Assembly (NCBI GenBank): GCA_030041115.1
Contig: JASHOM010000089.1
Location: forward strand, 1 to 33,504
Length of the DNA: 33,504 bases
Direction of reading: 5' to 3'
Source: Vulcanimicrobiota bacterium
Lineage (GTDB): Bacteria > Vulcanimicrobiota > Vulcanimicrobiia > Vulcanimicrobiales > Vulcanimicrobiaceae
Position 1 is the stretch's first letter. Every line of letters begins with the position of its first letter. Positions 11,105 through 13,342 of this stretch are shown piece by piece. Made by a program: the position numbers and the translations under genes. Below the pieces are notes generated by a model, which saw only the letters and a program-made list of their open reading frames with translations, had not been told where the DNA came from and did no database searches.

Positions 11105-12142
11105 TCAGTAGACCGGCGCGGTGCCCACGCCGGTCGGCGGCTGCTCAATCGGCGGAATCGGTTGCGAGAACGGAATCGGCGTCGGTGTGGGACCCGAGAA
11201 CGGAATCGGCGTCGGAACGGGGCCCGAAATCGGCTGCCCGAGGATCGGCGTGGGAGTGGGCCGGCGCTGCTCGTACCCATTGACGAGGGCACCGCCGAGG
11301 TCCACGTCGTGCGCGCTAACGTCGACGTTCACGCCTTTCTCTTGGGGGGTAAGCGTCGTCTCGATTCGTCCCCCATTGCCGTTCTGCGCGCTCACGCGCA
11401 GTGCCCCGTTCTGCTCGTAGGTAACCGACTCGCCGTTGCCGAGCTGCAGCGTCTGTCCCTTCGCGATGGAGATCGATTGTCCGTAGCTCGTGATCGACGC
11501 GTCGCCGTCGTTATTCATCGTGACCGTCGTCGCCCCGTTGTTCAGCGCGACCGTCGCCGATTGGTTCCAGTCGACGCCTTTACCGTCGCGCGGCGTAACC
11601 TGCGTCGAGACGCGAAATCCGCCGGCGATCGAATCGGAGTTGATCAAATCGGGTTGCGAAGCCATGTTGTTCCATTTGGCACCGTTGAAGGATAGATGCG
11701 GATCGCCGTCGCTCGAACCTTTGGCGTTTTGGAAGTAGCGTTCGTTGCCGGAGGGCGGGCAACCGGTGCCGCCGTATGGCGAACAGCCGTTACCGCCGTT
11801 GGGCGGACAGCCGTTACCGCCGTTGGGCGGACAACCGTTGGATCCGTAGGGCGAATTGGAGCCGTAGCCCATCAGCGACTGAAGCATCTGCATCAACTGC
11901 TGCAAGACGCCCATGAGCGGCCCGAAGAGCCCTTGCATCGAGCTCGAGCTGCCGTAGCCGTCGGCGTACGAGGATGAGGCATCGCTTTGAGTGAGCCAAG
12001 GCGGAACGAAACGCGAGATATTGTCGCCCGCGGCGGGTGCAGCCGACCCGGCAAAGAGCGCGCCTTCGGCTTGCGCGCCCTCGGCGGGAGAGGAGAGCGA
12101 ACTTGGGGTGAGCGAGCCGTCGAACGGCTGAACGTACATCAT
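11105..12142 (-). CDS. GDPH-motif (vWD/DUF1521-like) protein with Cys octapeptide repeats
   Basis: This 345-residue protein has no classical signal peptide. The layout is a Ser/Ala-rich N-terminus, then a Met/Leu-rich amphipathic stretch GLFGPLMGVLQQLMQMLQ (about 71-90). Next are four or five octapeptides of the CPPNGGNG type (about 97-132). A beta domain (about 140-290) opens with SSDGDPHLSFNG and contains repeated TVTM..DGDASITSYGQSISI strands. The tail has decapeptides of the type PTPIPFSGPT. GDPH opens von Willebrand type D domains and is also the self-cleavage site of metal-ion-inducible autocleavage (MIIA, DUF1521) domains of rhizobial NopE proteins. Which of the two applies here cannot be decided by eye. 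GGAGG lies three bases before the first ATG and six before the second (12139), so the second may be the true start. Confidence 0.75.
   Translation of the reverse strand: MMYVQPFDGSLTPSSLSSPAEGAQAEGALFAGSAAPAAGDNISRFVPPWLTQSDASSSYADGYGSSSSMQGLFGPLMGVLQQLMQMLQSLMGYGSNSPYGSNGCPPNGGNGCPPNGGNGCSPYGGTGCPPSGNERYFQNAKGSSDGDPHLSFNGAKWNNMASQPDLINSDSIAGGFRVSTQVTPRDGKGVDWNQSATVALNNGATTVTMNNDGDASITSYGQSISIAKGQTLQLGNGESVTYEQNGALRVSAQNGNGGRIETTLTPQEKGVNVDVSAHDVDLGGALVNGYEQRRPTPTPILGQPISGPVPTPIPFSGPTPTPIPFSQPIPPIEQPPTGVGTAPVY
11165..11224. repeat. 30-bp tandem repeat (2 copies) coding the Pro-rich tail
   Basis: Two adjacent 30-base units share CGAGAACGGAATCGGCGTCGG and differ only in the last bases. They encode the PTPIPFSGP-type decapeptides of the GDPH protein. 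A degenerate third unit follows. The repeat is in frame, so copy number can change without breaking the gene. Confidence 0.7.
11763..11858. repeat. 24-bp tandem repeat (4 units) coding Cys octapeptides
   Basis: Four 24-base units lie head to tail. The two central ones (11787-11810 and 11811-11834) differ by a single base and the outer two are diverged. Each encodes one octapeptide of the CPPNGGNG / CSPYGGTG / NSPYGSNG type in the GDPH protein. It is a coding repeat without spacers, not a CRISPR array. Confidence 0.8.
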
Positions 12143-12231
12143 AAACCTCCGTCGTAATGAATTGCGCTTCGATCACGACGAGTGCGCTGCGCGACAAGGG
12201 GCGGCGGACACGCTAGAAAAACCGAGGCGAC

Positions 12232-13342
12232 ATGAGCGATACGCAGATAACCACCGTGGCCCGTCTTCAGCAGCGCTTGGAAGCGCTCAAGGAGCGTCTT
12301 TGACGACGCCGGCAGCCGTCGCCGGATAGCCGAGCTCGAGGAACGCTCGCGATCGCAGGAGTTCTGGAGCGATCCGGACTCGGCGCAGCGCACGATGAAG
12401 GAACTCGCCGAGTTACGCGAACGGACGGAGTCGTTCGCTGCCGTCGGCGCCGCGCTCGACGAAGCGCGCGAGCTGCTGGCGCTCTTCAAGGACGATCCGG
12501 CGGCCGAAGGTGAAGCCGATCGGAGCATCGCTTCGGCGGCGGACTCGCTCGAAGCGCTCGAGATGGCGGCCAGCTTTAGCGGTGAGTTCGATGCGCACGA
12601 CGCAATCGTGAGCATCTTCACGGGGGCCGGGGGAGTCGATGCCGCCGATTGGACGGCGATGCTCGCTCGCATGTACCTGCGCTGGGCGGAAACGAAGGGA
12701 TTTTCGACGCAGATCGTCGACGAGTCGCCGGCCGAAGAAGCCGGTTTGAAATCGCTGACTTTCTTCGTACGCGGCCGTAACGCTTATGGGTTGCTCGAGA
12801 GCGAGCGCGGGGTTCATCGCCTGGTCCGGCTTTCACCGTTCGACGCGGCGCACCGCCGCCACACCTCGTTTGCGGCAGTCGACGTTATCCCGGAGGTTGA
12901 AGCCGGCGAAAGCCCCGACGTCGAGATCAAGCCCGACGATCTGCGAATCGAAACATTCAAATCCGGCGGCGCGGGCGGGCAATACGTGAACAAGACCGAG
13001 TCGGCGGTTCGAGTCGTGCACCTGCCGACCGGAATCGTGGTTGCCTCGCAGCAAGAACGCTCGCAAGCGCAAAACCGCGAAGTGGCGTTGAACATTCTGC
13101 GCGCAAAGCTGGTTGCCCGCGCGGGCGAGGAGCGCGACCGGAAGCTCGCCGATTTGCGCGGGGAACGTCAGGCGAACGAGTGGGGCTCGCAGATTCGGTC
13201 GTACGTGCTGCAGCCCTACCAACTCGTCAAGGATCATCGCACCGGCGTCGAAACGGGTAACGTCGGCGACGTACTCGACGGTCGAATAGATACGTTCATT
13301 TGGCCCTTTCTCCAGCAGCGTCGCGGCGCGCCGCCGGGGTAA
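12232..13342 (+). CDS. prfB: Peptide chain release factor 2 (programmed +1 frameshift)
   Basis: The gene starts at ATG 12232 (GAGG five bases upstream). It reads 23 codons to an in-frame TGA at 12301-12303, then continues in the +1 frame from GAC at 12302 to the TAA at 13342, giving 369 residues. The ORF track lists only the second part from an internal ATG (12395). The release-factor hallmarks are present: the anticodon-like tripeptide in LVRLSPFD and the catalytic GGQ in SGGAGGQYVNK. RF2 terminates at UGA and UAA by triggering peptidyl-tRNA hydrolysis. Low RF2 favours the frameshift, so the protein controls its own synthesis. The next gene starts two bases after the stop, suggesting coupling. 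Confidence 0.95.
12289..12304 (+). promoter_or_regulatory. prfB programmed frameshift site
   Basis: AAGGAG, a three-base spacer, then CTT TGA C reproduces the classical RF2 recoding signal: an internal Shine-Dalgarno sequence just upstream of a slippery CTT codon and a UGA stop followed by C. Ribosomes shift from CTT to TTT when UGA is decoded slowly. The downstream +1 frame is continuous with the rest of RF2. Confidence 0.93.

Follow-up and report, generated by a model that had tools for sequence, protein, structure and literature searches.

Within the window, the 33,504-nucleotide stretch of DNA analysed here, the open reading frame at 11105–12142 on the minus strand is a real gene of a Candidatus Eremiobacterota genome, that of a soil bacterium (all coordinates of its features below are likewise on the minus strand). 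The frame encodes 345 residues from an ATG at 12142, and a Shine-Dalgarno sequence, GGAGG (12146–12150), lies 3 bases 5' of this ATG and 6 bases 5' of the next one. The sequence ACGGAGGT recurs upstream of most orthologs in the genus. Because the orthologs begin MYVQP and mostly have a six-base spacing from GGAGG, translation probably begins at the second codon, base 12139, which would give a protein of 344 residues. Residue numbers in this report follow the 345-residue count from the first ATG.

The protein begins with a disordered region (residues 1–73, MYVQP...AAGDNISRFVPPW; 11924–12142) that is conserved in the genus and carries no signal peptide. The first 30 residues contain no Lys or Arg and therefore no n-region of the Sec/Tat type, so that export by Sec or Tat is unlikely. 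A Met/Leu stretch, GPLMGVLQQLMQMLQSLM, is modelled as an uncharged, amphipathic helix rich in Met, Leu and Gln (residues 74–91; 11870–11923) and is followed by four Cys octapeptides (residues 102–133; 11744–11839), NGCPPNGG, NGCPPNGG, NGCSPYGG and TGCPPSGN, which are encoded by a 24-bp DNA tandem repeat of 4.5 copies. Next comes a predicted von Willebrand factor D (vWD)-fold domain of 12 strands (residues 133–290; 11273–11746), which in the window protein is free of Cys. Its GDPH motif (residues 146–149; 11696–11707) falls within the turn that follows strand 1, and the predicted scissile bond is D147-P148. A Pro-rich tail built on a decapeptide repeat closes the protein (residues 292–345; 11108–11269); the tail is real but variable, and is absent from some relatives. 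The anatomy given in the first-pass annotation, namely the reading frame, GDPH, the four octapeptides, the Met/Leu stretch, the Pro-rich tail and the lack of a signal peptide, was thus recovered in every part.

The divergent neighbour is prfB, encoding release factor 2 (12232–13342, plus strand), with its programmed-frameshift site, CTTTGAC, in classical form at 12298. This synteny is conserved: the family gene adjoins divergent prfB in 27 of the loci compared, and in 22 a gene that we take from its sequence to be secA lies close by on the opposite flank. Plasmid and phage records yielded no relatives, and there is no sign of mobility. The locus is stable and vertically inherited, unlike a typical effector gene. 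In one genus the N-terminal half alone is kept at the same site and the GDPH domain has been lost, so the domain is dispensable there. Two prfB-site orthologs in genus g19 (L032 and L185) retain the N-terminus and helix without the GDPH domain.

Pfam and NCBIfam gave zero family matches for the window protein. Whole-genome searches placed the family in 34 of 60 related genomes, and a profile search in 86 of the 149 genomes of the phylum, nearly all within one taxonomic family. The named records among them are Candidatus Eremiobacterota, and their isolate names include many palsa, bog and soil MAGs. One ortholog (L189:3614-4504, minus strand) is assigned to Vulcanimicrobium alpinus WC8-2, the member of the phylum that was brought into culture first (PMC9758169). 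In an alignment of 30 sequences GDPH is the sole run of four consecutive invariant residues. The motif is intact in all 77 distinct domains, at identities down to ~32%, and these domains were gathered by similarity, with GDPH never used as a search key or pattern. Gly213 is also kept in 77 of 77, and Asn193 and Met160 (11663–11665) each in 75. One further domain piece lacks the domain start, the gene being split in genome G013: its two parts lie ~113 kb apart on contig C1 (L033 and L016, at about 184 kb and 298 kb), and the first half stops directly past GDPHLSFNG, through either rearrangement or assembly error. A family present in 34/60 and 86/149 genomes with an invariant GDPH is more than a chance observation.

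The first-pass annotation had proposed to look for orthologs that retain both GDPH and the octarepeats. GDPH was retained throughout, whereas the octarepeats vary between relatives. This bears on the proposal, also made there, that the Cys residues are possible metal ligands, in which case metal bound by the octapeptides would act as the trigger. The window protein does have four Cys at even spacing, as such a site might, but the linker holds anywhere from 0 to 4 Cys between relatives and none in many orthologs that keep GDPH, and a 24-bp tandem repeat such as this array is likely to expand and contract. On account of this variation we do not accept the octarepeats as a conserved site for metal, and the metal-binding trigger appears highly improbable. 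Triggering of the window protein by metal in any form is a broader proposition, and we regard it as unlikely.

The structure was predicted with AlphaFold2 from a 30-row alignment. Residues 133–290 were modelled confidently (pLDDT blocks mostly 75–98), the helix at 74–91 reached a confidence of only about 65, and the remainder outside domain and helix was disordered. In the model strand 1 spans residues 135–144 and GDPH follows at 146–149. A Foldseek search of the PDB returned vWD or vWD-related chains as all of its best 34 matches (E to 2e-6, probability 1.00), namely MUC5AC, MUC2, VWF, MUC5B, FCGBP, Cypridina luciferase and an insect pigment protein, and the next match fell clearly to noise at a probability of 0.23. 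The query TM-scores are low (about 0.3), being normalised to 345 residues of which more than half lie outside the domain. No significant fold match was found in a viral structure library. At the sequence level, the best PDB match of the family profile was FCGBP, with E=0.001 summed over several domains; the matches follow the pattern GDPH..F.G..[FWY]..M and are weak, with no single domain significant. The Pfam VWD profile (PF00094) gave no match to family proteins.

Two features of the self-cleaving subset of vWD domains, the beta-sandwich and a GDPH between strands 1 and 2, are present in the predicted structure, the latter in the alignment as well. The conserved disulfide Cys of vWD domains, including the one that ties strand 1 to the domain, are absent, and Cys flank GDPH on both sides in only 11 of 30 members. 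The domain is very probably a vWD fold, as predicted from the model, and is not a PF00094 member. Of the two profiles named in the first-pass annotation, neither DUF1521 nor PF00094 was matched.

What might such a domain do? We infer cleavage from the motif, its position and its conservation, and consider it likely that the window protein cuts itself at D147-P148. In the D10 domain of FCGBP, strands 1 and 2 are joined by the turn that holds GDPH, and the Asp and the His of the motif are both required for cleavage (PMC10880436); a Gln at position +14 aids the reaction. Met160 takes the place of this Gln in the window protein, although FCGBP domains with GDPH and Met at that position exist. According to the proposed mechanism, the protein would be made as a leaderless and mostly disordered chain with one folded vWD-fold module and an intact GDPH. 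Once the domain has folded, the side chain of Asp147 would attack its own main-chain carbonyl, with His149 assisting, and the D147-P148 bond would then be hydrolysed. The N-fragment (residues 1–147) would comprise the disordered region, helix, linker and first beta strand, and the C-fragment residues 148–345. Because the C-fragment of the window protein has no Cys, the two would be joined through strand 1 and not by a disulfide. Speculatively, the product is probably a surface or exported structural protein, which its helix would anchor or assemble.

An alternative is that the domain is a structural or adhesive module of vWD fold whose GDPH stays uncut and is conserved purely for the geometry of the turn. 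The motif sits in a tight turn, for which Gly and Pro would be suitable, cleavage itself is deduced from the sequence and a predicted model, and the stable, single-copy locus resembles that of a housekeeping or structural gene more than that of a variable effector. However, animal vWD domains fold without GDPH, many vWD D assemblies of known structure do so without a cleaved GDPH (PMC10880436), and Asp and His are as invariant in this family as Gly and Pro. Since the fold does not need the motif, selection for the chemistry is the best explanation of why GDPH is invariant, and we judge an uncut GDPH to be unlikely. A Cys-independent vWD-fold module that self-cleaves at D147-P148 is, on present sequence and modelling evidence, a reasonably probable account and the best explanation overall. 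Against it count the failure to match any family, the missing vWD Cys, the Met in place of Gln at +14 and the loss of the GDPH domain in one genus. Of the two families named in the first-pass annotation, vWD was thus the better candidate, as the predicted fold and total GDPH conservation both fit self-cleavage.

The other candidate was DUF1521/MIIA, according to which the window protein would be effector-like and exported, with a disordered domain that folds when it binds Ca2+ and then cuts itself. The GDPH cleavage motif and a leaderless, low-complexity N-terminus are indeed common to both. Among 30 family members, however, DUF1521 (PF07481) gave no match at E<=10, and a profile-profile comparison of the two families yielded probabilities of 4–27% with no local alignment of GDPH to GDPH. 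The published MIIA domain is moreover highly acidic, with 42 acidic and 21 basic residues in 171 (PMC6506597), against 17 acidic and 10 basic in 159 for the domain of the window protein. Membership was rejected on the first two of these results, and a true MIIA/DUF1521 protein now seems very unlikely; the reading fails as membership and survives as an analogy.

Part of the DUF1521 argument draws on other lineages of the phylum, where PF07481 exceeds its cut-off in nine other genomes. True DUF1521/MIIA proteins were seen in other Eremiobacterota lineages (L077–L087 and L092–L097), with several copies in some genomes, and most of their N-termini are rich in Met, Gly, Pro or Cys. The first-pass statement that no such protein is described in this lineage agrees with the papers searched, but other lineages of the phylum do have true DUF1521 genes. 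Two DUF1521-bearing genomes, G069 and G081, each have in addition a distantly related copy of the window-type GDPH domain. An N-terminal domain is common to L141 of G081, which has a vWD-like GDPH module, and L078 of G069, which has DUF1521 (42% identity, E=4e-18). This shared domain argues that either GDPH module can take the other's place in the architecture, and they appear from sequence comparison to be alternatives on one N-terminal carrier. In a DUF1521 model of moderate confidence, the only fold matches above a probability of 0.3 were vWD chains, none of them significant, and the model's resemblance to vWD is a lead only.

A further question is how a leaderless protein might leave the cell. 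One possibility, compatible with a self-cleaving vWD-fold module, is that the protein is a substrate of a flagellar-type export apparatus, and so a surface or secreted protein that leaves by a type III route and processes itself. In the window genome and its genus, a gene of the FlhA/FHIPEP type is clustered with genes for FlhB (NPxH kept), FliP/Q/R, FliI, FliF and rod-like proteins. Such clusters were located at L138 (contig C119 of the window genome), L139:953-12743 and L188:10542-14579, with members FlgC-like, FliE, FliF, FliH, FliI, FlgF/G-like, FliM/N, FliP, FliQ, FliR, FlhB (NPxH) and FlhA. No flagellin exceeded the cut-off in these genomes, and the function of the clusters there is a matter for conjecture. 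Flagellin-like matches in the window's genus were set aside, as they scored 21–26 bits, below the cut-off, and in the two genomes inspected lay in or over unrelated reading frames. V. alpinus has homologs of FlhA, FlhB, FliR and FliQ, yet is reported to lack both flagella and a flagellin gene (PMC9758169). The FHIPEP gene had suggested a host-directed type III system, an idea that was dropped because the export cluster keeps flagellar rod-like and C-ring proteins and resembles a reduced flagellum.

Export by this route would fit the disordered N-terminus and the presence of the apparatus without a flagellin over the cut-off, and the MIIA proteins NopE1 and NopE2 are type III-secreted (PMC6506597). 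On the other hand, the family gene and the apparatus genes are unlinked, the 96%-complete genome G021 carries the family without a FHIPEP match, and four genomes of a sister family in the same order have the apparatus without the family gene. We therefore hold this route to be possible and rather doubtful. A more far-reaching proposal joins it to the shared carrier, such that a bacterial, Cys-free, self-cleaving vWD fold would be exported via a filament-less flagellar-type apparatus and MIIA/DUF1521 would be a reduced relative of the same fold, with the modules swapped on one carrier. It strikes us as decidedly unlikely in this full form.

Work on self-cleavage at GDPH has dealt with animal mucins and related proteins and, as a separate line, with a small number of type III effectors. 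The open-licence literature searched yielded no bacterial vWD protein with GDPH, and the window protein, as modelled, is probably of a self-cleaving kind not yet described in bacteria. A bacterial vWD-fold family without conserved disulfides would offer a simple system in which to study the purpose of the cut, and would be relevant to the origin of the vWD fold. Since cultured V. alpinus carries an ortholog, the question of cleavage is open to direct testing now.

Among known systems, the GDPH vWD domains of FCGBP, MUC2, MUC5AC, MUC4, BMPER and the RGM proteins are the first to be compared. The window family differs from them in being bacterial and without conserved Cys, and the window protein has neither C8/TIL/E companions nor a signal peptide and is undetected by PF00094. 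FlhB/SctU cuts itself spontaneously before the Pro of its NPTH motif once the domain has folded; it differs from the window protein in having Asn-Pro at the site, an unrelated fold and a place as a component of the export gate itself. The MIIA/DUF1521 proteins NopE1, NopE2 and VIC_001052 resemble the window family in GDPH, in a leaderless, low-complexity character and, in one pair, in an N-terminal partner domain, whereas the window family is a different sequence family that has no significant profile match to them and is not acidic. The DUF1521 proteins of Eremiobacterota share with it the phylum and the GDPH motif, and differ in matching PF07481, in an invariant LxDG after GDPH, in their multiple copies in some genomes and in genome sizes of 5–8 Mb.
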